From the NCBI RefSeq assembly GCF_000380985.1, contig NZ_KB905702.1, positions 1 through 64,000 on the forward strand: a stretch of 64,000 nucleotides of DNA, given 5' to 3'. Below, piece after piece: positions 1-22,602 of this stretch. Origin of the DNA: Proteiniphilum acetatigenes DSM 18083 (lineage in GTDB: Bacteria; Bacteroidota; Bacteroidia; Bacteroidales; Dysgonomonadaceae). Made by a program: the position numbers and the translations under genes. How positions within the stretch are numbered: position 1 is the stretch's first letter; each line of letters opens with the position of its first letter. Below the pieces are notes generated by a model. That model had not been told where the DNA came from. It did no database searches and was given only the letters and a program-made list of their open reading frames with translations.

Positions 1-1
1 C

Positions 2-151
2 AAGTCACCCAGCCAGTGGGCGGAGACACTGGATGATGAAGTGTTAGCCACAGCCATCCTGGATCGACTGCTATATCGTTGCGAGGTGATCAGGTTCGAG
101 GGAAACGGTTACCGTATGGACAACCGGAAAACTTTCCTTGAGAAAGAATAA
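2..151 (+). CDS. istB: IstB-like ATP-binding protein of an IS21-family element (C-terminal end only)
   Basis: The reading frame is open from base 2 to a TAA at 149-151 and enters from outside the window. The 49 visible residues contain a [19 protein letters not shown] stretch, which resembles the extreme C-terminus of IstB, the AAA+ helper ATPase that works with the IstA transposase. The Walker motifs would lie upstream of the window. The terminal repeats of the element follow at once. The IstB assignment is by family resemblance of a short tail, so it is good but not certain. Confidence 0.72.
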
Positions 152-199
152 AAAAACAGTTGAATACAATAAAAAAAAGATAGTTAATGTAATGTTAAA

Positions 200-265
200 C
201 CTGTACATTGGATATTGCCAAAAGTTGTACACTCAACATTGCCATTTTTTGTACATTGTAAATTT
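200..265. mobile_element. Right end of the IS21-family element, with repeated terminal motifs
   Basis: After istB comes a short repeated pattern: ATATTGCC followed by TTGTACA (about 212-230), then ACATTGCC followed by TTGTACA (about 236-255), with a further TGTACATTG at 202-210. IS21-family ends usually carry several such repeated transposase-binding motifs. The exact outer boundary and any target duplication cannot be fixed because the other end is outside the window. The gene at 271-813 starts its damaged 3' end right here. Confidence 0.55.
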
Positions 266-270
266 GCTAA

Positions 271-813
271 TTACAAGCTTCTATCCTCATCGGACAATCT
301 TCTTAATAATTCTGCATTAAAATTATCTTGATGTTCTCCAATAGGAAGCATTCGGCTCATACTAAGAAATAAAGTAGGGATTGTAACTTTCGCAGAGGGT
401 CCGACTTCTACCCAATCAGAGTGGACTCCTCTTGGTACAACCTTTAGGCGTTGGTATATATTAGTCCCCCTCTTTTCTTTATGCTCAGAGACATTACAAG
501 TTTTGATTAAATCTCCTTTGTCTTCACATGAATATATCAAACTGAAAGATGGTTTATCTCTTCGTCTGGGAAAATAATCTTTTTCTCTATCTAAATAGAA
601 TAATTCATGTAATTGAGCCTGAAATGCTTTTTGAAATAATGTGGTCCCACTGCTTTTTTTGAGCTCTGATCCATTTGCTATTAAACCCAATAAAGTTGAT
701 TTTCCAATACCATTATGTCCTGCAATAACTGTTATACGTTCTGCAATTTCAATCCCAAGATTTCTAAACATTCTGAACGGAGTTTCTCCGAACGTGATTT
801 TTTTAATCTTCAT
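271..813 (-). pseudogene. AAA/ABC-type ATPase of the defence-like operon, cut off by the IS element
   Basis: The 180-residue frame begins with a beta-strand-rich start and a clear Walker A (GHNGIGKST, residues 32-40), as in SMC/OLD-like AAA ATPases of anti-phage systems. It stops shortly after an SDEDRSL end exactly where the IS21 end begins. No Walker B, signature or C-terminal effector domain is present, while relatives are normally several hundred residues, so this is a truncated gene. Its ATG overlaps the stop of the methyltransferase by 4 bases (ATGA), so it is the last gene of that operon. The identity of the missing C-terminal domain is unknown. Confidence 0.7.
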
Positions 814-1739
814 AATGTGGAAATGGGGGTGAATATTTTGCTTTTATATATAATACTCGACTTAGTTTTTGTTCTCCTAAATTTAAAATAGATAGGATTC
901 CAATTGGGAATTTTTGGTTGCTTAATTGTTGAGCTAAAAAACAAGATTTCTTGCCCTATTCTAATACTATATGCTGTATGCTTGAAAGAATATTCCTTTT
1001 TTACACAATCCTTATAAAGATTTCGTATTTCAGGCACATTGTCATAGGAAACAATCCATTTAACATTTTGAATTGCTCTTATTTTTTCGCTGACTAACTT
1101 ATGATCGTTTTCTTTGTAATGATTCATATATAATGTGCTTGCTTTTAGATAGTAAGGGGGGTCGAAGTAAAATATTGTATTTTCGTTATCAGCTTCCTGC
1201 TGTATTTTATCTATTAACTTAAGGGCATCTTTGCAATATAATCTAATGTTTTTTTTATTCTTGGCTATCTGTCTTATCTTCTTTATTATATCTTCTTTGT
1301 TGAATCTACAGTCTATCAAATAATTACCATCTTGATTAATTCCCCCAATAACTCCTGCATTTATAATTCCAGAACGACTGGTTCGGTTTAAAAATAGAGT
1401 CGAAAAACCGAGTTCCAAAAGATTTGCTTTTCTCTTGTTTTCCTGAACGAATCTCTGCCTTTTCCATTCTTCAATTGTTACATCTGTATTTTGAACTAAT
1501 TCACATAATTGATTCGTGTGATTTAAGACAGAATACCAAAAAGCATATATTGATCGGTCTTTATCATTAATTGTAATTCTTTTTACAAATCCTTCAAATA
1601 ACAGGAAAAGAGCAACGGATGCCCCTCCTGCATATGGCTCTACATAATGTCCATTAACTTTATTATCAACGCAAACTTGCGCAATAAAAGCAGACAATTT
1701 ATTTTTGCCTCCTGGATATCTAAGTGGTGAGTAATGCAT
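810..1739 (-). CDS. D12-class (Dam-like) adenine-specific DNA methyltransferase
   Basis: 309 residues with the D12-class pattern: PLRYPGGKNK (residues 5-14, cofactor-binding FxGxK equivalent), VEPYAGGASVA (33-43) and the catalytic DPPY (193-196). These enzymes transfer a methyl group from S-adenosylmethionine to N6 of adenine in a short DNA target. The start overlaps the ParB-like stop by one base (TAATG) and the stop overlaps the next start, so translation is probably coupled. It has no separate restriction endonuclease partner in view. Within this operon it may mark self DNA; that is inference. The low-GC codon use fits recent acquisition. Confidence 0.88.
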   Translation of the reverse strand: MHYSPLRYPGGKNKLSAFIAQVCVDNKVNGHYVEPYAGGASVALFLLFEGFVKRITINDKDRSIYAFWYSVLNHTNQLCELVQNTDVTIEEWKRQRFVQENKRKANLLELGFSTLFLNRTSRSGIINAGVIGGINQDGNYLIDCRFNKEDIIKKIRQIAKNKKNIRLYCKDALKLIDKIQQEADNENTIFYFDPPYYLKASTLYMNHYKENDHKLVSEKIRAIQNVKWIVSYDNVPEIRNLYKDCVKKEYSFKHTAYSIRIGQEILFFSSTIKQPKIPNWNPIYFKFRRTKTKSSIIYKSKIFTPISTL

Positions 1740-3304
1740 TAATTGTCAGTATTTATATTCTCACTCAAATAAACAAATAAAGGCTCTAAATGTTGCCAAG
1801 CTCTTTTGTTGTGCTCGGCGTCAATTATTGTCTTAATATTATGAATAGCGAGATCTAAATCCATTTTGATTCTCTCAATATAAGCTTTTACATTTTTGTA
1901 TGTATTGTTGTCTAAAGAATTAATAAGTTTATTCTTTACAACATAGTCTAACATAGCCTTCAAAGATATATCTGAATATTCTTTATTCCCATTGAATTTC
2001 AAGATATTCATAAGTGTATCAGAGTCAATATCATCTTCTACTTTGTGAACATCTTTTATATAATTGATTACAGTCTCTACTTTCTTCATTCCGTTTTTCT
2101 TGTTCTCTTCACTCGTTTTATCGGACAGTTCATCTAATAATTTATTTTCAGACAAATAAAAATATAATGATTGTTCAAGATATGACCGTAAGAGAACAGC
2201 AAATGAATATTTCTTATCAAAAGGTAATGTTTTCAATTCGGAAAATAGACCATCTAACTTTTCATTATCAAATATGATTTCCTTGTCTCTTGGTATGATG
2301 AAATTTGAATAAAATCCTTTTTTTGTTTTCTTTCTTCTTCCAGTAGTCTTACCTTTCTCGTTTTCTAAATCTTTCCTATTTTCAGATACACGGCTTTTTG
2401 TAATTTCCTCACTCGTAGTTATACTTAAATCTATATCAGGACTCTCTGTTAATTTAGTGACAAATTTTTTCAAGTCTTCTCTCGTATTATATTCACGGGA
2501 AAATCTTTCCGCATCAAACAACTCTTTAAATGTTACTATAATTCTTTTTTCAAATTCCTCTCTTGGTAATTTGATGGTTAGTTCTCCATTGTTATTATCA
2601 AACTCGATGCCTAAAAAAATTCGAGCTTCTTCTAATCCATAGAGCCTCTCAAGATTGGTTAAATCAAAATTTTCGATATCAATAATAATTCCTTCTTCTT
2701 TCTCTAAAATTTCTTTTCCTTCAATGAACAAATTATATGCTTTTAATGGCTTTAGAACGTTACTTCGTGTTTCATTTAATACTTCACAAATATCATCTAT
2801 AGACAAACCGTCTTTTTCGTACATTTCAGCTATAAATGAGTATTGGTTTCCTGTTCTCCATTTATGTACGGCCTCACCTTTATGTCGTTCATAAATTATA
2901 GGATTGGCTAATAATCTATTAGGTGCGATATGACATCTTATCTTATAATCGTCAATAGGAATGTTGTTCTTAAGAATATTTTTCAACAGGATATTAGCTT
3001 TAGCCGTTGACACATATTTCTTGGGGTTCTGTAATAATTTTAATGAAGCAACTCGTCTATTTCCTTCTAGTACGACCTTCTTATTGTTCTCTATGCAAAT
3101 AATAGGTTCTTCTCCAATAAAATAACCTTCTTCTGAAATTTTTTTTGCTAGCTCATATACCTTTTCCTTGTCTAATAGAATTTTCAATACCTGAGTTTGA
3201 TTTAAACCTTCGCCCATATGCCGTATGCGAGGGTTATTTATGTCTAGCTGTAATGAGCTTACTTTGTACTCAAAACTGTCCCAAGTTGAATAATCTATAT
3301 ACAT
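1739..3304 (-). CDS. ParB/Srx-fold N-terminal domain protein with a long helical C-terminus
   Basis: 521 residues. The first ~100 contain a ParB-type signature: LDINNPRIR (residues 20-28) and LEGNRRVASLKLL (79-91), corresponding to the ParB box II GERR loop that binds nucleotide in CTPases. A predicted HTH-like stretch (GLSIDDICEVLNETRSNV) follows near residue 165. The rest is charged and helical, with no family I recognise. It is not next to a ParA or an origin, so partition is unlikely; ParB-like proteins also occur in phage-defence and R-M-linked operons. It shares a one-base overlap with the methyltransferase. A TAnnTTTG box at 3356-3363 could be its promoter. Confidence 0.68.
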   Translation of the reverse strand: MYIDYSTWDSFEYKVSSLQLDINNPRIRHMGEGLNQTQVLKILLDKEKVYELAKKISEEGYFIGEEPIICIENNKKVVLEGNRRVASLKLLQNPKKYVSTAKANILLKNILKNNIPIDDYKIRCHIAPNRLLANPIIYERHKGEAVHKWRTGNQYSFIAEMYEKDGLSIDDICEVLNETRSNVLKPLKAYNLFIEGKEILEKEEGIIIDIENFDLTNLERLYGLEEARIFLGIEFDNNNGELTIKLPREEFEKRIIVTFKELFDAERFSREYNTREDLKKFVTKLTESPDIDLSITTSEEITKSRVSENRKDLENEKGKTTGRRKKTKKGFYSNFIIPRDKEIIFDNEKLDGLFSELKTLPFDKKYSFAVLLRSYLEQSLYFYLSENKLLDELSDKTSEENKKNGMKKVETVINYIKDVHKVEDDIDSDTLMNILKFNGNKEYSDISLKAMLDYVVKNKLINSLDNNTYKNVKAYIERIKMDLDLAIHNIKTIIDAEHNKRAWQHLEPLFVYLSENINTDN

Positions 3305-3355
3305 GTTAAATGTCTATGAATTAAGATAATATTAATTGCTATAAAAACTCAATTG

Positions 3356-3363
3356 CAAAGATA
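3356..3363 (-). promoter_or_regulatory. Putative -7 box (TATCTTTG) of the parB-like/methyltransferase/ATPase operon
   Basis: On the minus strand the box reads TATCTTTG, matching the Bacteroidota TAnnTTTG consensus. It lies about 50 bases before the ATG at 3304 in the ~200-base gap separating the ParB-like gene from the GHKL gene. A good -33 TTTG is not seen at the usual spacing. This suggests the downstream three genes can be transcribed separately from the GHKL gene. Confidence 0.4.
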
Positions 3364-3504
3364 TGAAAAAAATGTATAATGAGGATTTTTACCCAACAAA
3401 TTCTACCATATAAAATCCTGATTGTAATGTGTTTACTTTTTAACCCATTTAAAGTTGGGGAAAACACCAAACAGGCATATTGAGTATTGCTCTTTTTGCC
3501 TTAT

Positions 3505-5871
3505 TTATTGTATTTCTTCTGGCATTGAAATAATATCATGTATTTCAATTGCTCCAAGACTATCAATCATCGGTATTAAAATGGGAGAGATCGCTTTTGA
3601 TGTCTTATAAATCCTTTCAAAAATATCTTCCTCTTCTTCATTTTGATTCTTGTTATTATCCTCTTGTAACAGAGCAATCCCTATAAGGACAAGCCCGAAT
3701 TTATATTTTGCTTCAATTGCTTGAATTTCGGTGCCTTTGGCAGCTTTCAACTCTGTTAGTAAATGAATGTTGTCTATGTTTACAAAATAATCATATCCAT
3801 CTTCGACACTTCCTTTTACTCTTAAAGCTGAATTGTCGTCAAATGATTGCTCGTCCCAATTGTGTCCACTCCTACCATCTTTTGTTACTTCAATGATATT
3901 GGGTAATGCAAAACCATCTGAAGAAGTTGAATCTTTTCCTGGTTTATCTGAAGAAGGTGGTTTTCTGTTACCATTTCCCGGAGGACTTTTTGTAACCGGT
4001 TCGGCCACTAAAACGAAAAAATCCTCATCTATTGGTTTGTATCTACTAACATCCGAAATTTCACTATGAATATTCAATAAATCCCCAATCTTATAATCTT
4101 CAATTAGTACGTTTAAATGAGCAAATCCATTCCACAAATTTATTGAAGCATCTTTAGATTCTTTCCCATTTATAAAAACTTTAAAAGTTCCAGGGTCTTT
4201 ACTTCTATCAAAATAATTATTAGAAACATCTGTTTTAAAGTCAACACGGAATTTGCTATTGTAATGAGCTAATTTTGGTTTATCGTGCGGAAATTTCTTA
4301 ATAAGTGTAAAGTAGGTTGGAAATTCCTTGCCGATAAATTCTTCTTCCTTTCCTGTTGAAATTGTATTAAATGGATTTGAAAGCCCTTTACCATGTAAAA
4401 ACAATCTCGACAGAGTTGGCGATTTTCTTAAAACATCTTGAAGAACATCAACCAACGGTTGAGATTCTTGTAATTTGTTTTCTATTTCTTCTCTCTTCCT
4501 TTTCTCTTTTAAACCTCTTAGACCTTGGTGATTTTTAAGTAATTCTTCAAGCGAAATTTCAATATCTGTTTTAAGAGGACAGGAACTCAATCTATCTCTA
4601 CTATTCATGAATAAATCTTCTCGCGCTCTTCCGTCTATTTCAGAGCAGTCAAGAATAACTAAAATGGATTCGGCTAAATATCCTAATCCAACAGCTTTTC
4701 TATTAAAGAAGGATTTTGAAAGGTATCCATGTGTTTGTCCATTTATTGTAAAAATAATTCCCTCATCCTTAGTATATTTTTGATGTTTGCCTCTTTTGAA
4801 AACATAAATTGAGTATCTCATTTTCTGACCAGAAATTGTCATTGTGCCGGAAGTCGGGAAATTCTCTTCTATATTTTCAATTTTATCTTCATCAATTCTG
4901 ACTGAAAGTCCGGATAAAATCGTTTCAAAACTATGACCTGAATAACCTTTTCTACGTTCATATAATTTTACAGGTAGAGCAATGTGTGGCATTAAAAGCG
5001 ATAATTTGTTGTAGAGGTCAAATAGTATATTTGTTCGTAATCCAGCTCCAATTTTGTATTCGAAAAATTTAATGAAAGTGCCAGATTCTAATGAGTTACC
5101 ATAGGCATTGGGATATTCAGAAGGAAGTAGAGGTAATTCTTCTCCGGGGAAAAATAATATCATTTTACTTGGTGCGAGATATTTATAATTTGAACTTCTA
5201 GCACCCTGAATTGGGTCTTCTCTTCTAATTACTGTAAATCCCCAAAAATCTTTTGTCGGGTCTCCTTCATTTATCGCAATCTCAGGATTTCTTCTTGATA
5301 CAATTAATTGAATATTAGTTTCTCCGCAAAATCTAAAAACGCCAGTACCTCCCATATTAAACTTACCTTGAACGAACGGTATTCTTAATTTATTTGATTT
5401 ACGTAAAGAAAGAATTGTGTCATGCAATTTTGCTGGAGTTTGACCTTCTCCCTTATCAATTATTGTATACGTTGGATTTGTTTTTTCTCCTGTTACAACC
5501 AAGCAAATGTTTTCCGCTAGCTTACTTCTCTCTTTAGCCGGAATGTTGGTAAGTTTACCCTCATCAATTTTAAAAAAATGAATAAGCGCATCTTTAATAC
5601 TTTTAGGAGCATTCTCACCATCAGGTTTTATTCCTCTCTTATAACATTCTCCCATCAAAACTGCATCAACAGAATTTATTATCTTTTCAACGATTGCAGC
5701 TTCTGGTTTACTTTGTTGATTACCAATAATTGAGAAGTTGTTTTCATCTCCTCCAAAGTAATGCCAGTTCTCAGGGTTATCCCAGTATTTCTCCGTCTTT
5801 AAAATATCAATTATTTCTGGTTCTGATTCACATTGAACAAGTGAGAGGCAGAGGTCTTTTAATTGCATCAT
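3505..5871 (-). CDS. Large GHKL (Hsp90/MORC-like) ATPase of the defence-like operon
   Basis: 788 residues. The N-terminal ~200 residues hold all GHKL signatures: N-box EKIINSVDA (residues 62-70), G1 box DKGEG (139-143) and G2 box NMGGTGVF (172-179). A Lys-centred conserved region and a charged helical middle follow. The region near residues 640-680 is Pro/Ser/Gly-rich and looks like a linker; the C-terminus is unassigned. Such ATPases change shape on ATP binding and act as clamps; prokaryotic MORC relatives (paraMORC) have been described next to restriction-modification genes. It probably starts the operon that continues with the ParB-like and methyltransferase genes. ATG at 5868 is an equal alternative start. 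Function is inferred only. Confidence 0.75.
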   Translation of the reverse strand: MMQLKDLCLSLVQCESEPEIIDILKTEKYWDNPENWHYFGGDENNFSIIGNQQSKPEAAIVEKIINSVDAVLMGECYKRGIKPDGENAPKSIKDALIHFFKIDEGKLTNIPAKERSKLAENICLVVTGEKTNPTYTIIDKGEGQTPAKLHDTILSLRKSNKLRIPFVQGKFNMGGTGVFRFCGETNIQLIVSRRNPEIAINEGDPTKDFWGFTVIRREDPIQGARSSNYKYLAPSKMILFFPGEELPLLPSEYPNAYGNSLESGTFIKFFEYKIGAGLRTNILFDLYNKLSLLMPHIALPVKLYERRKGYSGHSFETILSGLSVRIDEDKIENIEENFPTSGTMTISGQKMRYSIYVFKRGKHQKYTKDEGIIFTINGQTHGYLSKSFFNRKAVGLGYLAESILVILDCSEIDGRAREDLFMNSRDRLSSCPLKTDIEISLEELLKNHQGLRGLKEKRKREEIENKLQESQPLVDVLQDVLRKSPTLSRLFLHGKGLSNPFNTISTGKEEEFIGKEFPTYFTLIKKFPHDKPKLAHYNSKFRVDFKTDVSNNYFDRSKDPGTFKVFINGKESKDASINLWNGFAHLNVLIEDYKIGDLLNIHSEISDVSRYKPIDEDFFVLVAEPVTKSPPGNGNRKPPSSDKPGKDSTSSDGFALPNIIEVTKDGRSGHNWDEQSFDDNSALRVKGSVEDGYDYFVNIDNIHLLTELKAAKGTEIQAIEAKYKFGLVLIGIALLQEDNNKNQNEEEEDIFERIYKTSKAISPILIPMIDSLGAIEIHDIISMPEEIQ

Positions 5872-5978
5872 ATTTATTAGTGTTTAGTTTAGTCTTTCAT
5901 GCTTACATACAAAGTGCTTTGAAATAATGCCTCCTTTTTTGTATACCTACCCAGGGGTTGGAGGAAGAAACCGAAATC

Positions 5979-6050
5979 TTATTTCGGATCTTTCAACAAC
6001 TTCTCCAGAAGGGTGTTTTTCTCAACCAACAGCCAACAAAGAAGAACCAG
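5979..6050 (-). pseudogene. Remnant of the 3' end of an XRE-regulator paralogue
   Basis: On the minus strand this stretch reads VEKNTLLEKLLKDPK and a stop. The neighbouring intact XRE gene ends with EKEKSALLRQSRKDQK and a stop, and the bases just after both stops are also alike. The rest of the paralogue is gone. This is a decayed duplicate, evidence of repeated gain and loss of this regulator family here. Confidence 0.5.
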
Positions 6051-6075
6051 TGATTATTGGAAGAGGGCTATTTAG

Positions 6076-6109
6076 ATAATTTGTCCAGGGCTATAATTTG
6101 TCCAGGGCT
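6076..6109. repeat. Perfect 17-base tandem duplication
   Basis: The 17 bases ATAATTTGTCCAGGGCT occur twice in a row (6076-6092 and 6093-6109), between the XRE remnant and the intact XRE gene. No ORF is affected. It looks like a recent replication slip in a non-coding stretch. Confidence 0.85.
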
Positions 6110-6155
6110 TTTTCTCTTTATCTTTTGTGGAGATAAGTTAAGTAAAGCCGGAATC

Positions 6156-6560
6156 TTATTTCTGGTCCTTTCGGGACTGCCTCAGAAGAGCGCTTTTTTC
6201 TTTTTCCAGTTTGACTATCCGTTCATATAATTGGTCTTTTTCGGAATAGAGTTCCATTAGCTTATCCAAAGGATTAAAATTTAAGATTTGAGAACTTTGG
6301 TCGAAGAAGTTAGCGGCGACTTCCGGCAGAGAATCATCAGGCATATTCCGGATAAAGACTTCGTCGATCTCCAAAACTTTGGCGTATGCTGCTATTGTTG
6401 CATCATCCAGTTCCTGACGTCTCTCCAATTGGGATACAGCTTGTTGAGAAATTCCTAATTCCATGGCAATTGCATCCTGTTTAACGCCCTTGGCTTCCCT
6501 GAGTCGCTTTGCATTTTTACCTTGATGGACATCCTTTTTATTGTTTTCCGTATTATTCAT
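6156..6560 (-). CDS. XRE-family HTH regulator with C-terminal coiled coil
   Basis: 134 residues. A helix-turn-helix of the XRE (Cro/C1) type spans roughly residues 16-70 (KRLREAKGVKQDAIAMELGI, then SQQAVSQLERR). A linker rich in Asn/Phe leads to a short coiled coil (LMELYSEKDQLYERIVKLEKE). Two paralogues with the same architecture lie at 16970-17368 and 17417-17815, and a decayed one at 5979. A TATCTTTG box sits just upstream. It is likely a dimeric DNA-binding regulator, but the targets are unknown; it could control the adjacent defence-like operon or SusC locus. Confidence 0.85.
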   Translation of the reverse strand: MNNTENNKKDVHQGKNAKRLREAKGVKQDAIAMELGISQQAVSQLERRQELDDATIAAYAKVLEIDEVFIRNMPDDSLPEVAANFFDQSSQILNFNPLDKLMELYSEKDQLYERIVKLEKEKSALLRQSRKDQK

Positions 6561-6585
6561 AACTCACTCAAATTGAAATTTATAA

Positions 6586-6593
6586 CAAAGATA
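6586..6593 (-). promoter_or_regulatory. Putative -7 box (TATCTTTG) of the XRE gene
   Basis: The minus strand reads TATCTTTG about 25 bases before the ATG at 6560, matching the Bacteroidota -7 consensus TAnnTTTG. Corresponding TAACTTTG boxes precede both paralogues near 17 kb. Confidence 0.5.
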
Positions 6594-6900
6594 ATAGAAA
6601 ATCGAAGATGAAGATATTTTAATAAGAAGTTATACAACTTGTATGCCTCCTTGTACAACATATTTTACGCTTGTAAGTTTTTTGAATACGCTTGTTCGAA
6701 ACATTTCAATATTACGCAGGGTTTCATTCTTTTTTTATTCTTTTGCATTATTGAACGATGACTGTCTGCCAAGCAGGTACATTTCAAAGTTACAACATTC
6801 ACCTTTGAAATCTCAAGTAAATTGAGAGGAGTAAAGTTACAAAAAATATCTAAAACTTAAACAAAATGCGTATGAAAACATAGAAATTAAAAAGAATGAG

Positions 6901-7102
6901 TATTTTTGTACTGTTAAATACGGTACGATTTACATAGCGCTTTTTTTGGTCTTATATCCGAATCCGCAAAATTCAAACCAAGAGACCAAAGAATGGAAGC
7001 GCCCTTAGCAATAAGGGCGTGGACATTGTATTATTCTCTTGGAAAGGCCCCTGCGGAGCCTGGATGTAGGAATAACGACAATCGTCCGCGCCTCTTTTTT
7101 AT
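6901..7102 (+). ncRNA. Candidate structured small RNA ending in a T-run (promoter box at 6901-6908)
   Basis: The gene-free stretch 6561-7345 contains a TATTTTTG box at 6901-6908, then several hairpins. TTTGGTCT (about 6946) pairs with AGACCAAA (about 6982). CGCCCTT pairs with AAGGGCG (about 6996-7018). ATTGT/ATTATT (about 7023-7035) pairs with AATAAC/ACAAT (about 7070-7083) around an inner AGGC/GCCT hairpin. An outer GAAGCGC/GCGCCTC stem closes just before TTTTTT at 7096-7102. A transcript of roughly 185 bases is predicted, similar in size to a 6S RNA, but I cannot assign it to a family. It could also be the leader of the SusC gene downstream. Bases 6594-6900 show no gene. Confidence 0.45.
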
Positions 7103-7345
7103 ATCCCCGCATATACATCAGAGCCACATCGAATAAGACGTTAGAAGCCTGATTGCCGGCAGTTTTATTCCTTCATCAACAGAATATCTATTTATTCTCC
7201 GCACGTACGATTGTCTAATACCGCACCGGGTTTCAGTTACCTGCAAACTCTTTCCTCTTTCAGCCGGCGTTCGCCGGAAATACCCGTTTAATCCAAGTTT
7301 CGCAAGATTGTTAGTCCGCCTGTAGAAATGAAATAAGGTTGGGAA

Positions 7346-10300
7346 ATGAAAAGACCTGTGAAACTTCAGCATTTATTTTTCACTAAACGCCGACAAGCCA
7401 TTTGTCGCTGTAGCGGATCAATTTTATTGTCGGTCTGTAAAATAAACAGATACACCATGATTTTAAAAGATAAATCTGATTATCCTGAAAGTTGCCTGTC
7501 GTTGTTAGCCGTCTTACGGTATAAATGCACACGATATAAATATGAATACATTGGGAAAATCATATCGTTATTGCCTTTCTTGCGAGGTACATGCACACGG
7601 TACCGGTTGTTGTTCCTGCTGTTGGCAGGTTGTCTTACTTTCATAAACTCTACTTACGCGCAAACGGTTACCGTCACCGGGCGGGTTACCGAATCCACAG
7701 GTAACCCGCTGCCGGGTGTAACCATAGTGATCAGGGGAACGTCCCCGACCGGTACGACCACCGGAGAAGACGGACGTTATACATTGACAGGCGTGCCAGC
7801 CGACGCGGTGCTATCCTTCTCCTTTGTCGGTTTTAAAACGCAGGAGATACCCGTGAACGGAAGAACACGTCTGAACGTGCAGTTGCAGGAAGATATCACT
7901 ACGTTGTCGGAAGTGGTCGTGAATGCCGGATATTATACCGTAAAAGACCAGCTCCGTACCGGCAGCATTGCCAGGGTGACGGCCAAAGAGATCGAAAATC
8001 AACCGGTCAGCAATGCGCTTTCCGCCCTTCAGGGGCGAATGGCGGGAATAAACATTACCCAGGGTAGCGGTGCTGCCGGTGGCGGCTATGAGATACAAAT
8101 CCGTGGTACAAACAGTTTAAGAAGGGTGGGGAACTACCCCATGTATATTATCGACGGGGTGCCGGTAAGCCCGGAAACGGCTTCGAACAGTATTTCGGCA
8201 TCGATACTTCCCAATACGGAAATCAATCCGTTGAACGCCATTAACCCGAATGACATCGAGAGCATCGAGATCCTGAAAGACGCGGACGCGACGGCCATCT
8301 ACGGTTCACGCGGAGCCAACGGTGTAATACTGGTCACTACGAAAAAAGGAAGGACAGGGCGGAAGACCGCCCTCAGCGTGAACACCGGCTACGGCCTTAG
8401 CCGCGTGGCCGGTAAGATGGAGATGATGGATACCCCGCAATACCTGGAGATGCGCAGGCAGGCGTATGCCAACGACGGCATCACAGACTATCCGGCGAAC
8501 GCATACGATATCAATGGCACCTGGGACCAGACCCGTTATACGGACTGGCAGGACGAACTGATCGGAAGGACGGCGACCACCTCCAATGTCCAGGTCTCCT
8601 TAAGCGGAGGTAGCGAAAATACAAGTTTTCTGGCCAGTGCCAGCCATAACGAGCAAACCACCGTCTTCGGCAGGGATTTCAAATACAAGACCAATAACCT
8701 CTCCCTGAACCTGAACCATCGCTCAGATGATAACCGGTTCACTTTGAGTTCGGCCGTACTATTCTCCGGACAGGCCAATAACCTGATACGGACAGATATC
8801 ACCAGCAAGGCTCTCCTGCTTAGCCCCAATGCCCCCGCACTCTACAAGGAGGACGGCAGCCTGAACTGGGAGGACAACACCTTTACCAATCCGGTTGCAG
8901 CGTATGAAAGCACCTACGACAACAAAAACAAGGCACTTAACTTCAATATCAACCTAAGTTACGAACTGTTCCGCTCTTTTTATATCAAATTGAACAGCGG
9001 GATCAACCAACAGGTTTTTGAAGAAAAAATATTGTCGCCCAGCACGATATATAACCCTGCCTTCGGATTTACATCCGCCACCCATTCATCCATCAGGAAA
9101 GCGAACCAACACCAGTTTTCCTATTTACTGGAGCCCCAGTTAAATTACAGATGCACATTTAATGCGCATGAAATGGATATATTGGTCGGGGGTACTTTCC
9201 AGCACCGGCAAACGTCCGCCTTGGGAATATCGGGATCCCGGTTCGAAAGCAATGCCCTGATTACAAACCTGGCGGCAGCGGGGAATGTGACTGTCATATA
9301 CGATACGGAAACCGGATACAAGTACGCTGCGCTATTCGGAAGGATCAATTACCAATATAAAAAGAGGTATATCCTCAACCTTACCGGCCGTAGGGACGGG
9401 TCGAGCCGCTTCGGGACAGATAACCGTTTTGCCAACTTCGGGGCGGTCGGCGTGGCCTGGCTGTTCGCTGAAGAAGCGTTTTTCAATGATATCCGGTGGC
9501 TGAGCTTCGGGAAACTCCGGGCAAGCTACGGGCTTACCGGAAGCGACGCCATCGGGGATTACCAGTACCTGGATACCTATACCGTGAGCAGTAATAGTTA
9601 TGGGGGAATCAAGGGATTGTACCCTTCCAGGTTGTACAATCCCTATTTCAGTTGGGAAAAGACGACGAAACTGGAGGTCGCGTTGGAACTGGGATTCCTT
9701 GACGACCGGATACGGTTGAACACCGCCTGGTTCCGCAACCGTTCGGGCAACCAACTGGTGGGTATCCCGTTGCCCGGAACCACCGGCTTCACCCGTATCC
9801 AGGCAAACCTGCCGGCCACGGTGGAAAACAAAGGGCTGGAACTGGAACTTAATACGAATCCGGTGAGGACAGGCACGTTCAACTGGGACAGCGGTTTCAA
9901 CATCAGTTTTCCAAGGAACAAACTGGTATCGTTTCCGGGGTTGGAGGGTTCCACGTATGCAAACCAATACGTCATCGGTTATCCCGTGTCTATTGCGAAA
10001 GTGTATAATTACGAGGGGATCGACCCGGAAACCGGGCTCTACACCTTTACAGACTACAACAACGATGGCAATATCTCTTCACCGGATGACAACCAGGTGA
10101 TCAAAAGAACAGGTGCCCGGTATTACGGCGGATGGTCCAACCAGTTATCGTATAAACAATGGGAATTCTCTTTCCTGTTCCAGTTTGTGAACCAGGTACA
10201 GAAAAATTACAACAGTGCCATGCTGATGCCGGGTACGATGAACAACCAACCGGTAGAAGCACTGGACGTATGGTCGAAGGATAATCCCGGCGGACAATAC

Positions 10301-10582
10301 ATGGCTTATTCCTCCGGGGTGGATGCACAGAAAAACCAGTCGTTCCTGCTTTTCAAAAACAGTACGGTGGCCGTCGGGGATGCCTCTTTTATCCGCTTAA
10401 AAAATATCCAGTTAAGCTATCTGCTTCCTGTAAACAAACATGTGCAGAATATACGGTTCTACGCACAAGGCCAGAATGTGTTGACCTTTACCGACTATTT
10501 CGGTCTGGATCCCGAGTTTATTTCAACCGGCTTTTTACCACCGCTGAAAACGTATTCGTTCGGAGTTCAGTTTAACTTTTAA
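7346..10582 (+). CDS. SusC/RagA-type TonB-dependent outer-membrane transporter
   Basis: 1078 residues if the first ATG is used. The hydrophobic signal core RLLFLLLAGCLTF is near residues 86-98, so a start at 7457 (Met38) is more likely. After the signal comes a carboxypeptidase-D-like regulatory domain (TVTGRVTESTGNPLPGVTI, about residues 109-127, on to about 185), a TonB plug (LSEVVV, LQGRMAGI, IRGTNSL, YIIDGVPV, ILKDADATAIYGSRGANGVI) and a large beta-barrel ending in Phe. It imports a bulky ligand with SusD as the surface lid. SusD follows after 10 bases. The neighbouring S9 peptidase suggests peptides rather than sugar as ligand; that is inference. Confidence 0.95.
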   Translation: MKRPVKLQHLFFTKRRQAICRCSGSILLSVCKINRYTMILKDKSDYPESCLSLLAVLRYKCTRYKYEYIGKIISLLPFLRGTCTRYRLLFLLLAGCLTFINSTYAQTVTVTGRVTESTGNPLPGVTIVIRGTSPTGTTTGEDGRYTLTGVPADAVLSFSFVGFKTQEIPVNGRTRLNVQLQEDITTLSEVVVNAGYYTVKDQLRTGSIARVTAKEIENQPVSNALSALQGRMAGINITQGSGAAGGGYEIQIRGTNSLRRVGNYPMYIIDGVPVSPETASNSISASILPNTEINPLNAINPNDIESIEILKDADATAIYGSRGANGVILVTTKKGRTGRKTALSVNTGYGLSRVAGKMEMMDTPQYLEMRRQAYANDGITDYPANAYDINGTWDQTRYTDWQDELIGRTATTSNVQVSLSGGSENTSFLASASHNEQTTVFGRDFKYKTNNLSLNLNHRSDDNRFTLSSAVLFSGQANNLIRTDITSKALLLSPNAPALYKEDGSLNWEDNTFTNPVAAYESTYDNKNKALNFNINLSYELFRSFYIKLNSGINQQVFEEKILSPSTIYNPAFGFTSATHSSIRKANQHQFSYLLEPQLNYRCTFNAHEMDILVGGTFQHRQTSALGISGSRFESNALITNLAAAGNVTVIYDTETGYKYAALFGRINYQYKKRYILNLTGRRDGSSRFGTDNRFANFGAVGVAWLFAEEAFFNDIRWLSFGKLRASYGLTGSDAIGDYQYLDTYTVSSNSYGGIKGLYPSRLYNPYFSWEKTTKLEVALELGFLDDRIRLNTAWFRNRSGNQLVGIPLPGTTGFTRIQANLPATVENKGLELELNTNPVRTGTFNWDSGFNISFPRNKLVSFPGLEGSTYANQYVIGYPVSIAKVYNYEGIDPETGLYTFTDYNNDGNISSPDDNQVIKRTGARYYGGWSNQLSYKQWEFSFLFQFVNQVQKNYNSAMLMPGTMNNQPVEALDVWSKDNPGGQYMAYSSGVDAQKNQSFLLFKNSTVAVGDASFIRLKNIQLSYLLPVNKHVQNIRFYAQGQNVLTFTDYFGLDPEFISTGFLPPLKTYSFGVQFNF

Positions 10583-10592
10583 AATAAAGATC

Positions 10593-11957
10593 ATGAAGAA
10601 AATATATCTGTTTTTTTGTATCGGAGGTTTACTCCTGGCAGCCTGTGAAGACCTTATCGACGTGGGGTACCCCTCGAACCAGTTGGGAACGCCGCAGGTG
10701 TTTGAAGATGTGCAAACCGCCAACGCCGCATTGGCATATTTACACGCCATGGTACGGGACCGGTCTGTCATGTCAGGTGGAAGTTTTACCGGGATGGGTA
10801 CCCTTGGGGGAATGTATGCCGATGAGTTGGACTGTTACTATAATGACCAGAACGGGGTTCTGGATATTTATCATAACCAGTTACAGGAAACCAATACTTC
10901 CATAGCAAGCATTTGGAGCAATTCCTACCAGCAAATTTATTATGCCAATGCCGTTATATACGGTGTGGAACAGTCGCCCACATTGTCCGGAGACGACAAA
11001 AACCGGATCAAAGGGGAAGCGTTGCTGGTGCGTTCACTGATCTATTTTTACCTGCAACAGCTTTTCGGCGATATTCCTTATACGACCAGCCTGGATTACG
11101 AATATAACCGGACGATTGGCAAAACGGAAGCTTCTGCGTTGCTGGCACAATTAGAGAAGGATGTTACGGAGGCAGCCGGCCTGTTGGTAGATGACTACCG
11201 TGATGCGGAACGGATTTATCCCAACCGGAAAGCGGCGCAACTGCTGCTGGCCCGTATTTACCTGCTCCAGGGAGAATGGCTGCTGGCCGAACAGACAGCG
11301 AAAAATATCCTTCAGTCTCCCCTCTATCAATATGAGACGGATATCAATGAGGTATTCCACAAATCGGGCAAGCATATCCTTTGGCAGCTGAAACCGCAGA
11401 ACAACGGGGATGCGACAAGCGAAGCGACTCATTATTACTTTGCCGATTCAGCACCCCACAATTTTGCGCTGACACAGGACCTGGTGGACGCCTTTGCCGG
11501 CAATGACCTCCGCAAACAGGCATGGATCGCCACAGTAACCGTGAACGAGCAGTCATGGTACCGCCCTCACAAATACAAGAACAGGTCGAACAACACGGAT
11601 GAATACTCCATCATGTTTCGCCTGGAGGAGGTTTACTTTATCATCGCCGAGACGCTGGCCCGGCAAAACAAGATGGATGAAGCTTTATCCTATCTCAATG
11701 CCTCACGGCAAAGGGCAGGGTTAACCCCATTGGCATCCTTGACGGAAGAGGAATTTCATAATGAACTCCTGGCCGAAAAACGGCGTGAATTCTTTACCGA
11801 GTCCGGTCACCGCTTCCTTGACCTGAAACGGTGGGGGAGGCTGGATGAGTTAAGCACCGTAAAGCCCAATTGGGAGAATTATAAACAGGTATGGCCGCTT
11901 CCACAAAGCGAACTGTTGCTAAACCCGAATTTATACCCTCAAAATACCGGATATTGA
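10593..11957 (+). CDS. SusD/RagB-family surface nutrient-binding lipoprotein
   Basis: 454 residues with a lipobox ending at Cys18 (GGLLLAAC). Tetratricopeptide-like helical region and the typical C-terminal features of SusD proteins are visible: RLEEVYFIIAETLARQNKMD, a LLAEKRREFFTESGHRFLDLKRW motif and a WPLPQSELLLNPNL end. The ATG follows SusC by 10 bases and the stop comes 2 bases before the peptidase start, so the three form an operon. It captures ligand at the cell surface for the SusC pore. Confidence 0.95.
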   Translation: MKKIYLFFCIGGLLLAACEDLIDVGYPSNQLGTPQVFEDVQTANAALAYLHAMVRDRSVMSGGSFTGMGTLGGMYADELDCYYNDQNGVLDIYHNQLQETNTSIASIWSNSYQQIYYANAVIYGVEQSPTLSGDDKNRIKGEALLVRSLIYFYLQQLFGDIPYTTSLDYEYNRTIGKTEASALLAQLEKDVTEAAGLLVDDYRDAERIYPNRKAAQLLLARIYLLQGEWLLAEQTAKNILQSPLYQYETDINEVFHKSGKHILWQLKPQNNGDATSEATHYYFADSAPHNFALTQDLVDAFAGNDLRKQAWIATVTVNEQSWYRPHKYKNRSNNTDEYSIMFRLEEVYFIIAETLARQNKMDEALSYLNASRQRAGLTPLASLTEEEFHNELLAEKRREFFTESGHRFLDLKRWGRLDELSTVKPNWENYKQVWPLPQSELLLNPNLYPQNTGY

Positions 11958-11959
11958 CC

Positions 11960-14461
11960 ATGAGATGTAGAATCCTATTATTATCCCTGTGCCTGTTGCT
12001 ACCGGCAGGCCGGGAACTGAATGCACAAAACAGCAAGGAAGAACTGCAACAGCTTGCAGACAGGTATTACGACATGCGTCTTCAGGATAGGGTTGACAAC
12101 CCCATATGGTTTACCGTCAGCAAACTGTATGACCGGAACCATGACACGATCCTGATCCTCAATAACCGGCATCCCGGAAAGGTGACAGGCGCCAGGGCAA
12201 TCAAAGGAATACCCTTTTTCATCGGCAGTGACCGCCTGCTTACACGCAATAGCCACAAGGCAGAATTGTGGAACCTGCAAACGCAAACCGGTATTTATTA
12301 CGAGCATGTAAAAGACATGAAAGCGCTGAAAAATAACGGATGGTTTGTATTACACTACAATGAAGAAGCCGATAACAAGGTTGGCATGTATAATACTTCG
12401 GGTAAATTGCTGCAATCCGTCGATCACGCAACCAGGTTTATAATTGCGGACGACGACCGTGTATATGTGATTACCAAAGAGGAAAATGGAGATTCTCACC
12501 TTGTGCGGCTGGGTGATAAGGGCAAGGAGCAACTATATAACTCTCCCCGCGAAATCAGGCTCCTGGACATATATCCCGCGCGGCAAGGTATCATGATCCA
12601 TGAACAGGTCCCGGGGAGTAGGGCCATGGGTGTTGTCTATCTCGACCTTACTACTAAAGCGGCGTATCCTTTACAGGATGTGTTGCCCGTAAGCACCCAA
12701 CAGGTGTTTACGGAGACCATTGAAGGAGGAAACAGTTATTTCCTCAAAGTTGTGGTCGATTTCGAAAAACAGGATACGTCGGTGGTAGATATCTGGTACG
12801 GGAATGATTACCGGTTGGAGAGAAAATTCTATCCACATCCTGTTTTTACCTATCATGTCTGGAATCCCGTGGCAAAACAGATCGAACAGGTAGGCGCGGA
12901 CTCACAGGCGGAGAAGGCGAGCCTGGGCAATGGGCGTTATTTCGTGAGCGTCGACCGTTCCCTTTTACAGGATTATATCATCGCTTCACCCAGGCTGAAG
13001 ATAGATATTTATGACCGCAGGGAAGAGACATATTCCCTGATGGATACCATCACAGCACACGCTCAAACAATGTTGTATCCTTCACCCGGAGGGGAATATA
13101 TCTTATATCGCAAGGGCCATAACTGGTATGCGTATCACGTTGCAACGGACACGAAAAAGATCATCGATGGGAATGGATTGCACAATCCTTATTTTACACC
13201 GGACGGGAAAAGTGTCCTTTTTGACGGGGATGATGGTTTATGGTGTTATAATCCGAAGGAAAACAGCTTATCGAAACCGGGCAATTTTGAAGGATGCAAA
13301 GTGACCATCCTGAACGGGATTTCGCAGACTATCGCCTACAGGTTTCACCGGAAAACATTCGACCCGGACAAACCGTTACTGCTCAGGCTGTATAATCGCA
13401 ATGAAAATAAAGGCGCCTACATCTTACACCGAAATGGGCGGAATGAGACGCTTATACCATTCACCGGCATGAATATTAAAGAGCTGAAACACGACGAGGA
13501 TTACACACATTTTTATTATAGCGAAGAAAACTATAACCTTCCTCCCCGGCTGGTATATAAAGAACCGGGAAAAGATGCAACCGTGCTGTACCAAAGCAAC
13601 GAAACCGACAAAACAATCTTATCCCTTAAACAGGAGATCATTTCCTATACCAACAGCGACGGCATTCTGCTGAAAGGTATCCTGTATTACCCGTTGAACT
13701 ACAACCCTTCAGGGAAATACCCGATGGTGGTGCGTATTTACCAGATACAAAGTCACAAACGCAACCGTTACCCCTTGGCTGAATTCAGTACGAAAAACAG
13801 GAACGGTCCCAATCTCAGGCTACTGTTGGAAAAAGGGTATTTTGTCTATTTCCCCGATATCGTTTACGGGGATAAAGGTACCGGATTATCAGCTTTGGAC
13901 TGTGTACACCATTCCCTGGATGCGTTGGAAGACAATCCCTGCATCGATAAGAGCCGGATCGGTCTTTTTGGATTTTCACACGGCGGATATCAAACTAATT
14001 TCATCGCCACCCATTCCGACCGGTTCGCGGCCTATGTTGCCGGGGCCGGTAACAGTGATATCGTACGTTCCTATTTTTCGTATAACTACAATTTCAAGAG
14101 ACCTTTCTACTGGCAGTTTGAGACCGGGCAATATGAAATGAAAAAGAGTTTCAATGAAGACAAACAGCTTTATTTTCGAAATAACCCGATCCATTATGTG
14201 GACCAGGTCAATGCTCCTATTTTATTATGGGCCGGGAAGAAGGACCGGAATATCTACTGGGAGCAGACCATGGAGTTCTATATCGGGTTGAAACGGAACC
14301 GGAAAAAGGTGATCGCCTTGTTTTATCCCGAAGAAGGACACGCTTTTTTTTCGCAGGAGGCATGCAGTGATCTCTCTTTACGGATACAAGATTGGTTCGA
14401 TTATTACCTGAAAGGGAAGAAGGAGATGGAGTGGATTAAAAAAGTAGACCGGCTGGAATAA
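11960..14461 (+). CDS. S9-family (prolyl oligopeptidase-like) serine peptidase, exported
   Basis: 834 residues from the ATG at 11960, chosen because it gives a signal peptide (MRCRILLLSLCLLLPAG to about LNAQ) directly after the SusD stop. An N-terminal propeller-like region (to about residue 560) precedes an alpha/beta-hydrolase domain with the Ser in GFSHGG (Ser673), the Asp in WAGKKDRN (Asp762) and the His in EEGHAF (His794). It should cleave short peptides outside the inner membrane, in the periplasm or at the surface. Operon position suggests it trims the peptide imported by the SusC/D pair. It is convergent with the DUF6520-like gene. Confidence 0.9.
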   Translation: MRCRILLLSLCLLLPAGRELNAQNSKEELQQLADRYYDMRLQDRVDNPIWFTVSKLYDRNHDTILILNNRHPGKVTGARAIKGIPFFIGSDRLLTRNSHKAELWNLQTQTGIYYEHVKDMKALKNNGWFVLHYNEEADNKVGMYNTSGKLLQSVDHATRFIIADDDRVYVITKEENGDSHLVRLGDKGKEQLYNSPREIRLLDIYPARQGIMIHEQVPGSRAMGVVYLDLTTKAAYPLQDVLPVSTQQVFTETIEGGNSYFLKVVVDFEKQDTSVVDIWYGNDYRLERKFYPHPVFTYHVWNPVAKQIEQVGADSQAEKASLGNGRYFVSVDRSLLQDYIIASPRLKIDIYDRREETYSLMDTITAHAQTMLYPSPGGEYILYRKGHNWYAYHVATDTKKIIDGNGLHNPYFTPDGKSVLFDGDDGLWCYNPKENSLSKPGNFEGCKVTILNGISQTIAYRFHRKTFDPDKPLLLRLYNRNENKGAYILHRNGRNETLIPFTGMNIKELKHDEDYTHFYYSEENYNLPPRLVYKEPGKDATVLYQSNETDKTILSLKQEIISYTNSDGILLKGILYYPLNYNPSGKYPMVVRIYQIQSHKRNRYPLAEFSTKNRNGPNLRLLLEKGYFVYFPDIVYGDKGTGLSALDCVHHSLDALEDNPCIDKSRIGLFGFSHGGYQTNFIATHSDRFAAYVAGAGNSDIVRSYFSYNYNFKRPFYWQFETGQYEMKKSFNEDKQLYFRNNPIHYVDQVNAPILLWAGKKDRNIYWEQTMEFYIGLKRNRKKVIALFYPEEGHAFFSQEACSDLSLRIQDWFDYYLKGKKEMEWIKKVDRLE

Positions 14462-14470
14462 AAACAAAAA

Positions 14471-14503
14471 GGCCCCAAAGAGCCCTTCCTCTCTTTGGGT
14501 GCC
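14471..14503. terminator. Bidirectional terminator between the peptidase and the DUF6520-like gene
   Basis: A CCCAAAGAG / CTCTTTGGG stem extended by GGC/GCC lies between the convergent stops at 14461 and 14517. A-rich bases precede it and T-containing bases follow, so it can work on either strand. Confidence 0.6.
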
Positions 14504-14516
14504 TTCTCTTCAATAC

Positions 14517-14777
14517 CTATTGTTCAGGTTCAAACAACATATCGACGCAACTGGTTCCACTTAGCTCATAGAGTTCGTGGGAACTCCATGTACAAGCATC
14601 GGTACCTACACGGACACAACCTTTGTTGGTCTCTATACACTGGCCCGTTGAACTATCGATATAGTATCCGGTTACCAGATCACTGTCACTCACTTTTGCT
14701 GTATTAGTCGCAAAAGCCGCGCCGGCTCCCATTAATATGATCACAGCCGGCACAAGGAACTGTTTAAATTTAGTCAT
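14517..14777 (-). CDS. Small secreted Cys-containing peptide (DUF6520-like)
   Basis: 86 residues: a basic N-terminus and hydrophobic signal (KFKQFLVPAVIILMGAGAAFA, residues 3-23), then a mature part of about 60 residues with four Cys (47, 54, 62, 77), enough for two disulfides. The pattern fits the DUF6520 family of Bacteroidota, whose function I do not know. It lies 11 bases downstream of the MauE/DoxX-like membrane protein gene and probably shares its transcript. Its partner may form or use its disulfides. A structural or signalling peptide are both possible. Confidence 0.75.
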   Translation of the reverse strand: MTKFKQFLVPAVIILMGAGAAFATNTAKVSDSDLVTGYYIDSSTGQCIETNKGCVRVGTDACTWSSHELYELSGTSCVDMLFEPEQ

Positions 14778-14788
14778 AATGAAAAAAT

Positions 14789-16800: not shown

Positions 16801-16990
16801 AAATCACTCTTTTTTTCAACAATTTCCAGCAATTGTTCTATATTTTTCTGTAAGTACTTGATTTCGTCCTTCAACCAGTTAATTTCTTCGTCCTTTGCAG
16901 AAATAAGTTCTTTTACAACTTTTCTTGAAATATAGTTGTCGCATACAATTTTAACGACTTCACAGACTTCTATTCTTTCTCTTTTTTTAA
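16797..16990 (-). pseudogene. Remnant of a coiled-coil regulator-like gene
   Basis: The minus strand is open from about 16990 to a TAA at 16797-16799 and encodes a helical tail (VVKELISAKDEEINWLKDE, then KYLQKNIEQLLEIVEKKSDF). It resembles the C-terminal coiled coil of the XRE paralogues next door but has no ATG or HTH part. It overlaps the 3' end of the XRE gene at 16970. Probably the leftover end of a deleted paralogue. Confidence 0.35.
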
Positions 16991-17368
16991 AGACTCAAAT
17001 TTCTCTCTTTCTTTTTCCAACAGCTTCTCAAAGAACTCAATTGTTTTGTCTATAGGAAAATTATTAAAAGTATGGTTATTCCCTCCGGCACTTGTTGTAA
17101 CAGCACAGTTATTGTAAACGTTGTTGGTATTATACAGCACAGTATCTTCGTTGTACTCTTTTAATCCTTCTACGGTCACCCCTAATGCCGAAGCAATCTC
17201 TTTCAATCGTTCGTCATTAAATTTTTCCGTCTGCTCCATTTTTGAAACAGCCTGCTTTGTTATTCCCAGCAGGTCACCCAACTCGGTCTGAGTCATTCCC
17301 CGAAGGCGGCGTACCCGTTCAATTTTTCTCCCAAGGTGAATTCCATTGGCATAATTTGTCGTTTCCAT
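16970..17368 (-). CDS. XRE-family HTH regulator with C-terminal coiled coil (paralogue 2)
   Basis: 132 residues. The HTH occupies about residues 13-65 (RRLRGMTQTELGDLLGITKQ, then AVSKMEQTEKF). An Asn/Thr-rich linker (NNVYNNCAVTTSAGGNNHTF) and a coiled coil (IEFFEKLLEKEREKFESLKK) follow. It is arranged in tandem with the gene at 17417-17815 and is related to the one at 6156-6560. A TAACTTTG box at 17402-17409 lies upstream. Targets are unknown; the nearby MauE/DUF6520 genes or the PUL are candidates. Confidence 0.85.
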   Translation of the reverse strand: METTNYANGIHLGRKIERVRRLRGMTQTELGDLLGITKQAVSKMEQTEKFNDERLKEIASALGVTVEGLKEYNEDTVLYNTNNVYNNCAVTTSAGGNNHTFNNFPIDKTIEFFEKLLEKEREKFESLKKEKE

Positions 17369-17416: not shown

Positions 17417-17815
17417 TCATCTGTTTTTCAACAACTCAATCTTTTCTTGCTCACTTTTTAATAAACGCTTATATAGTTCAACTATTTTTTCGAATGGATT
17501 AACCTGATGATCAACAGTATCAGTAGTGGCCCCCTCAGAAATAGTTGTATCCCGGCAGTTATGTTGATTAATATTGAGGATCGTTTTTTCAATGTCAAAA
17601 TCTCTGATCACTTCGGAAGATATGCCCAATGCATCAGCAATTTGAGATAATAATACTTCTTCTATTTCATCCTGATTTTCGATCTTCGAGACTTCCGGCT
17701 GGCTGATACCAAGATCAGCAGCCAATGCTTCCTGCTTCACGCCAAAATACATCCGGACTCTTCGCACATTACGCCCGATATGCCTTTTCACTTTCTTTGT
17801 CGATTCAATACTCAT
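17417..17815 (-). CDS. XRE-family HTH regulator with C-terminal coiled coil (paralogue 3)
   Basis: 132 residues. HTH at about residues 15-68 (RRVRMYFGVKQEALAADLGI, then SQPEVSKIENQDE). A linker with IKNINQHNC-like Asn/Thr content and a coiled coil (VELYKRLLKSEQEKIELLKN) follow. Same architecture as the two other XRE genes in the window. Upstream lie a TAACTTTG box and a TTGACT-N9-AGTCAA palindrome that could be its own operator, which would fit autoregulation. Confidence 0.85.
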   Translation of the reverse strand: MSIESTKKVKRHIGRNVRRVRMYFGVKQEALAADLGISQPEVSKIENQDEIEEVLLSQIADALGISSEVIRDFDIEKTILNINQHNCRDTTISEGATTDTVDHQVNPFEKIVELYKRLLKSEQEKIELLKNR

Positions 17816-22590: not shown

Positions 22591-22602
22591 AAAAATAATA
22601 GT

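Follow-up and report, generated by a model that had tools for sequence, protein, structure and literature searches.

The first 64,000 nucleotides of contig NZ_KB905702.1 of Proteiniphilum acetatigenes DSM 18083 (positions 1 to 64,000, forward strand; hereafter the window) begin with four leftward open reading frames (ORFs), read in the order GHKL gene, gene A (ParB-like), gene B (D12 methyltransferase) and gene C (Table 1). We conclude that A and B very probably constitute a defence operon of the PD-Lambda-5 type that took up C, that C was later cut by an element of the insertion sequence (IS) family IS21, and that the GHKL gene is a separate neighbour. What was already known is that A and B belong to a named system; the window's copy is a damaged example of it. 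A preliminary description had taken the four genes for one operon. Its frames and their coordinates, the overlaps of 1 base (A and B share position 1739) and 4 bases (B and C), the 200-base gap to the GHKL gene and the AT-rich setting were all confirmed, as were its assignments of a D12 methyltransferase, a ParB-like protein (by predicted fold) and a GHKL ATPase (by motifs); of the AAA ATPase that it listed fourth, only the start is present.

Genes A and B each match one of the two PD-Lambda-5 families of PADLOC (2023 version of the library). A matched PD-Lambda-5_A over residues 14–478 of its 521 (3e-44), and B matched PD-Lambda-5_B over residues 2–279 of its 309 (7.9e-117). The earlier statement that the exact gene set was not a named system is thereby overturned, by a match of the very kind that the description had itself named as telling against its proposal. 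PD-Lambda-5 is an Escherichia coli system, recovered by functional selection and experimentally validated, for which protection against phage was shown (Vassallo et al, 2022, PMC9519451); the same account presents it as restriction–modification (RM) plus abortive infection (Abi). B additionally matched the Pfam family MethyltransfD12 (3.8e-19), and the DPPY motif and the other motif columns are intact in an alignment of ten sequences, B and nine relatives; B is predicted to be a D12-class N6-adenine DNA methyltransferase.

The company kept by B was surveyed at the loci of related methyltransferases. For genomes, the best 80 of at least 569 confirmed candidates (at least 591 pattern stretches) were used, a set that should not be read as a census and that may miss some of the 80 nearest. 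For viral sequences, the best 80 of at least 579 confirmed candidates (at least 600 pattern stretches) were used; 39 of these (L121–L159) entered the count of A and C, and the other 41 (L160–L200), mostly distant Dam-like enzymes with neither A nor C as a neighbour, were kept outside it. Ten further loci were added, one of which (L040) is the same record, Mesorhizobium NZ_CP080528, as L080. Loci were opened for 7 of 36 plasmid methyltransferase matches, 3 of 8 phage A matches and 5 of 6 plasmid GHKL matches (not H6). Methyltransferase loci spanned at most about 7 kb to each side and GHKL loci about 7–10 kb, several being truncated at a contig or locus end (e.g. L202 and L203), so that more distant partners would be missed. 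Within these limits A adjoined B in 65 of the 80 genome loci, 59 with A only and six with C as well; C alone was present in eight and neither gene in seven, four of which have B at a contig end and one of which (L068) has C farther off. The 39 viral loci gave A in 25, C in 12, both in one and neither in one (at an end), and the ten further loci gave A in six, C in three and both in one. Members of this methyltransferase subfamily thus usually adjoin A or C.

Outside the window A and C occurred together in eight loci and in four arrangements: A-B-C in L059 and L061, each with the window's 4-base overlap of B and C (C is split in L059); C-A-B in L083, L103 and L135; A-C-B in L049; and A-B facing C in L110 and L037. 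Because the three genes have been assembled repeatedly in differing orders, a working link appears preferable to one inherited accident. This speaks for a functional link of A, B and C but is not proof, and the 59 genome loci that carry A-B without C count against the proposed account as a whole. The A protein closest to the window's among the order sample (61% identical, L026) has a putAbiC gene (Pfam 3.8e-21) in the third slot instead of C; this gene, at 1228–2133 of that locus, overlaps B by 4 bases. Four loci with close A proteins (56–66%; L044, L052, L054 and L055) have no C. A search with B of 101 relatives found four matches, the window's included. One of them, from a relative of the same genus (46%), belongs to an A-B pair located terminally on a 4.5-kb contig, where the 464 bases remaining after B contained no C-like frame of 100 residues or more.

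The GHKL gene showed no such association. A profile search of 2,513 ORFs, the window's included, detected it at none of 170 methyltransferase loci (129 without the 41 of L160–L200), and A, B or C was present at none of 23 GHKL loci. Of the 295 genomes of the order that were searched, 5 gave a GHKL match, and of 395 from the phylum 11 did (the window's genome is counted in both); six plasmids and four viral contigs matched too, and no phage record searched did. An A-like gene was found in nine genomes of the order, apparently from the same 295; besides the window's own, just one of them is a strong match. The window's is the only genome common to these nine and the five that have GHKL. Because no linkage was found in either set of loci, we judge the GHKL gene to be independent of A-B-C, a stand-alone paraMORC-like neighbour. 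Same strand, tight spacing, a common AT-rich block and families that recur in defence loci had favoured a single unnamed system of four components, in which the GHKL and AAA ATPases would act on unmethylated DNA; set against the missing linkage in both directions, the solitary overlap among the order genomes and the cut in C, it is highly improbable, close to refuted, and we reject it. What survives of the earlier proposal is the idea of a defence locus whose methyltransferase marks self DNA, now resting on A and B. Its suggested search for recurrence of all four genes returned GHKL with A, B or C at no other locus examined, and C with A and B in the six genome loci given above.

Gene C of the window is the 5′ stump, interrupted by an IS21-family element, of an OLD/PtuA-like ATPase–TOPRIM gene. 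Residues 1–179 are native and the stop codon is contributed by the element, inside which contig C11, the contig of the window, ends. All 275 bases of window positions 1–275 recur unchanged at the ends of two other contigs of this genome, C17 and C6, and beyond them the flanks differ. The stump aligns to the first third of its full-length relatives, mostly 520–580 residues long (shorter relatives are split genes or lie at an edge), and scored 134 bits against the C-family profile over model positions 7–163 of 534. Pfam recognized the start of an AAA_15/ABC-type ATPase, with scores below or near the curated cut-offs. Walker A is retained; the signature, Walker B, H-loop and TOPRIM-like motifs are missing. 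The frame was rejected as a short complete ATPase, given that most of its relatives have roughly threefold its length and that its stop codon falls within the IS21 end. A query of the 37-contig assembly with one full-length relative, sharing 44% identity over the stump's length, matched only the stump. The missing part may have been deleted or, as would count against the present account, may lie in an unassembled piece; the contig end hides it.

The break in C raises the question of whether the whole locus has decayed, leaving A and B as inactive remnants. Partner genes are split into two frames elsewhere, C in L031, L059 and L123 and A in L037 and L087, and A and C may often be lost. However, A and B of the window have full-length frames with their invariant columns kept, and A-B seems independent of C, since most genome loci carry the pair without it. 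Decay of the entire locus is accordingly quite improbable. A and B seem undamaged and could still be active; C could not be, unless the part that it lacks is produced from another locus.

When intact, C has a predicted ATPase–TOPRIM layout like that of OLD and PtuA. Walker A, an SxGxD signature, Walker B (IDE) and the H-loop were present in all 14 full-length relatives aligned, as were the TOPRIM-like residues E379-D380-x-E382 and D436-x-D438 (L131 numbering); the names of these motif columns are our own assignment. Compared with chains of solved structure, a profile built from seven full-length proteins and the stump lay nearest to an ‘AAA family ATPase’ (4.7e-16), followed by PtuA of retrons and Septu (8.7e-16 to 1.3e-13) and an OLD-family endonuclease (9.1e-11). 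The three C proteins scanned with PADLOC obtained best scores of only 60–82 bits, to a different family each time (HEC-04, AriA and ATPase-Toprim_I-B), and no dedicated model for a C-B pair was found with them in that library. A strict C profile was made from 14 seeds, themselves counted among the members, with a cut-off of 100 bits; the lowest full-length member scored 235.6 bits. The PtuA/Septu-like ATPase of L067 fell below the cut-off at 51.2 bits; at 4908–9344 of that locus this gene and a 246-residue gene reading like an HNH protein stand directly before B, with A after B. An OLD/PtuA-like ATPase–TOPRIM gene directly precedes the D12 methyltransferase, with no ParB-like gene, in L116, L060, L073, L089, L131, L150 and others. 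The hub pattern, in which one methyltransferase subfamily has A and C as alternative or joint partners, suggests C-B as a candidate two-gene defence unit.

How A might work was approached through its predicted fold and its conserved residues. An AlphaFold2 model calculated from 40 sequences had a predicted local distance difference test score (pLDDT) of 83.8, and in a Foldseek search its best solved matches were ParB, KorB and Noc (best E 1.4e-4, probability 1.00). By this model the N-terminal part of A, at approximately residues 1–290, would be a ParB/Srx plus helix-turn-helix (HTH) core. N24, R26, G81-N82-R83-R84, W149, R373 and H488 are invariant in all 40 A sequences, the other 39 of which are 17–66% identical to the window's protein. 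The GxRR phosphate motif is GNRR throughout. In a profile alignment with the ParB of this genome, N24 falls opposite the Gln of QPR and N82 opposite the Glu of GERR, so that, within this weak alignment, the Gln and Glu of CTP hydrolysis are not kept and Asn occupies both positions in 40 of 40. The Q52A and E93A mutants of M. xanthus ParB are reported as hydrolysis-defective (PMC9178275), and VirB, which has one of the two residues, is described as a CTP-binding protein that loads as a clamp and has weak CTPase activity (PMC10770331). With Asn at both aligned positions, the closed state of such a clamp may be long-lived, and A could be a binding clamp that does without the hydrolysis residues.

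The invariant R373 and H488 lie in a helical C-terminal domain (approximately residues 348–515), and the pair suggests a putative RNase site resembling that of HEPN proteins. Classical HEPN sites have the spacing Rx4–6H. A review of HEPN proteins records fusions to ParB as well as HEPN genes that neighbour a ParB nuclease and a DNA methylase (PMC3710099).

Several results weigh against a clamp with an RNase-like effector. The TM-scores (template modelling scores) of the nine Foldseek matches with E ≤ 0.001 were low, at 0.11–0.28 by query length and 0.31–0.59 by target length. The profile match of A to ParB is weak (hhalign probability 1.8%), and the relationship rests on the fold match; a search of PDB chains with the A alignment as a sequence profile matched none meaningfully. 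The C-terminal domain lacks the Rx4–6H spacing and gave no usable match by sequence profile, Pfam or fold; of 29 Pfam families for the 40 A members, the 25 listed include no HEPN family. As set out in PMC10853773, members of the ParB/Srx superfamily may act as nucleases or as regulators. Finally, shorter A-like ParB proteins occur without B in L027–L030 and as gp98 of phage Wphi (L036, outside the locus counts), which indicates that the fold is not tied to methyl-gating and weighs against close dependence of A on B. Separately, Pfam ParB_N was found weakly in 5 of the 40 A members (best 0.029), the window's A not being one of them. A shorter ParB-like protein (360–398 residues) followed by a gene of 305–342 residues recurs in L027–L030, L099 and L114, either alone, after genes that read as DndC/DndD-like (L028 and L030) or after B-type methyltransferases (L099 and L114).

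A simpler interpretation is that A is a ParB/Srx nuclease and that A-B is plain restriction–modification, cutting unmethylated DNA with neither a clamp nor an abortive step. Nuclease activity has been reported for ParB/Srx proteins (PMC10853773), and the A-B pairs resemble a compact restriction–modification unit; on the other side, PD-Lambda-5 carries the Abi label as well as RM in PMC9519451, a plain ParB nuclease would not need two invariant residues in a C-terminal helical domain, and the best solved-structure matches of A are clamp proteins of the ParB family. We regard this interpretation as a possible but not a favoured one. It is unlikely that A-B instead serves a mobile element as an epigenetic or addiction unit, methylating the element's own replication or partition sites with defence as a side effect, although its relatives are located on phages, viral contigs and plasmids and A has the predicted fold of a partition protein.

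According to the model that we propose, B would methylate adenines at target sites on the cell's own DNA. A, as a ParB-family clamp, would load its ParB/Srx and HTH core, with nucleotide, at unmethylated sites on incoming DNA, and Asn at the two aligned hydrolysis positions would keep the closed state long-lived. Loading would then switch on the helical C-terminal domain with its RNase-like, HEPN-type Arg and His, and the infected cell would stop growing. Where C is intact, its kinship with OLD and PtuA suggests that it would add an ATP-gated nuclease responding to the same unmethylated signal. This full sequence of self-marking by B, clamping by A, an effector in the C-terminal domain of A and a second effector in C is offered tentatively and is less likely than not to hold in full. 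The general form of the proposal, in which PD-Lambda-5 is a methylation-gated immune clamp that is not readily reset, B is a shared hub licensing A and/or an OLD-type C, and A-B-C is a two-effector variant whose window copy was inactivated by the IS, is speculative. Confidence in the gene-level account combined with the tentative mechanism gives the whole statement, gene identities together with a methylation-gated clamp sensor and an abortive effector, about an even chance of being right. If the clamp reading of A is true, a fold known from chromosome partition has come to serve in sensing DNA that lacks methylation, PD-Lambda-5 gains a testable mechanism, and the CTP-switch family extends from segregation and gene control to immunity. 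In the portions of the literature on PD-Lambda-5 and ParB-CTP defence that were searched, we found no description of the A-B-C combination, the C-B pair or the clamp reading of A.

The GHKL protein itself is identified by its motifs. E62, N66, D69, D139-x-G141-x-G143 and G169/G174, which we take to be the N-box, G1 and G2, are invariant in 14 aligned members. Pfam HATPase_c_3 matched the window copy weakly (E 0.037) and nine of the 14 members, the window's among them, at E 0.1 (best 2.2e-6). The protein had no PADLOC match at E 1, and a profile search of the PDB with the GHKL alignment gave no meaningful match. Its structure model, from five sequences, was poor (pLDDT 46.2, predicted template modelling score 0.30), too poor to be read for an S5 domain after GHKL. 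Iyer et al (2008, PMC2292703) define paraMORCs as GHKL ATPases of restriction–modification neighbourhoods and give MORC proper the motif GhXhhpXXRhl in S5. VcSduA, a paraMORC3 with a nuclease domain, is described as defending by itself (PMC12137116). A Shedu-type paraMORC3 was rejected for the window's protein, as no DUF4263 or restriction-fold Pfam match was obtained in the 14 members at E 0.1.

Genes for SspB, SspC or SspD lie close by in 11 of the 23 GHKL loci (named by PADLOC in L014 and in the others by blastp to those proteins), a family thus often keeping company with phosphorothioation genes. These loci are L007, L008, L010, L013, L014, L015 and L224–L228; their GHKL proteins are 27–34% identical to the window's, and some also carry DndB-like, DUF262 or SIR2-type genes. 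The six closest GHKL relatives (42–69% identical by blastp) have no Ssp gene, and none of A, B or C, beside them. A role as an Ssp component here was rejected, the other three ORFs not being Ssp genes and the six relatives of at least 42% identity having no Ssp neighbour. No description of a GHKL–Ssp pairing was evident among the papers that the literature searches listed, and the main text of PMC10853773, on Ssp and Dnd neighbourhoods, does not contain ‘GHKL’ or ‘MORC’. Two loci share a gene of 373–375 residues directly before GHKL (L012, 12215–13342; L202, 5864–6985; 25% identical), the L012 copy of which had no Pfam match; in the window an HTH gene occupies this place.

The host assembly is 4.78 Mb in 37 contigs. 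The window covers contig C11 from its first base to 64 kb, so whatever adjoined the locus on its far side is out of view. GC content per kb is 0.295–0.356 over positions 1–7000 versus 0.445–0.529 over 7001–16000, delimiting an AT-rich block of approximately 7 kb. A script search found one TANNTTTG match, which we take to be a Bacteroidota −7-like motif, 59 bases before A within the gap that follows the GHKL gene; no upstream promoter box was seen at the usual spacing from it. The match is a weak sign of a separate, putative promoter for A-B-C. Small, similar-looking HTH genes sit in AT-rich patches, one upstream of the GHKL gene (Table 1) and two, labelled by reading alone, at 16970–17368 and 17417–17815. 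Between approximately 39 and 61 kb the sequence resembles a prophage and includes a UmuD/UmuC-like pair (51918–53596), labels that again come from reading alone. Two pairs of outer-membrane genes, at 7346–11957 and 19396–24534, are presumably SusC/SusD-like, a type of pair typical of Bacteroidota.

Table 1. Features at the left end of the window
Feature	Position	Strand	Size	Remark
Terminus of IS21-family element	1–275	+		C-terminal end of IstB at 2–151, then outer end; Pfam IstB_IS21 9.5e-11
Gene C, 5′ stump	271–813	−	180 aa	
Gene B, predicted D12 methyltransferase	810–1739	−	309 aa	
Gene A, ParB-like by predicted fold	1739–3304	−	521 aa	
Gap between GHKL stop and A start	3305–3504	−	200 bp	
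GHKL gene	3505–5871	−	788 aa	
Xre-type HTH regulator upstream of GHKL gene	6156–6560	−		Pfam HTH_3 2.3e-9

Compared with known systems, the GHKL protein has the motifs of the paraMORC GHKL ATPases, VcSduA/Shedu included, and its relatives occur in DNA-modification neighbourhoods; unlike paraMORC3/Shedu, its family has no DUF4263 or restriction-fold match, and it is the distant relatives that often stand by SspBCD, whereas the closest six stand by neither Ssp genes nor A, B or C. The Ssp systems (SspBCD with SspE or SspFGH) share with it the SspB, SspC or SspD genes of 11 GHKL loci, but the four ORFs of the window include no Ssp gene. The full-length relatives of C resemble OLD nucleases, PtuA of Septu and retrons and AriA of PARIS in their ATPase motifs and in the TOPRIM-like set ED-x-E…D-x-D; they differ in being paired with a D12 methyltransferase, and the window's copy has lost the motifs after Walker A. 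A is like the CTP-dependent clamps ParB, KorB and Noc in the predicted fold of its N-terminal part and in its GxRR motif, and differs from them by Asn at both aligned hydrolysis positions and by another C-terminal domain with an invariant Arg and His. The nearest known system is PD-Lambda-5, of which A and B match both PADLOC families over most of their length as adjacent genes on the same strand. The window's A is 22–29% identical to four proteobacterial plasmid examples, the E. coli system being likened through the PADLOC profiles, and here a third gene, C, stands directly after B and has been cut.

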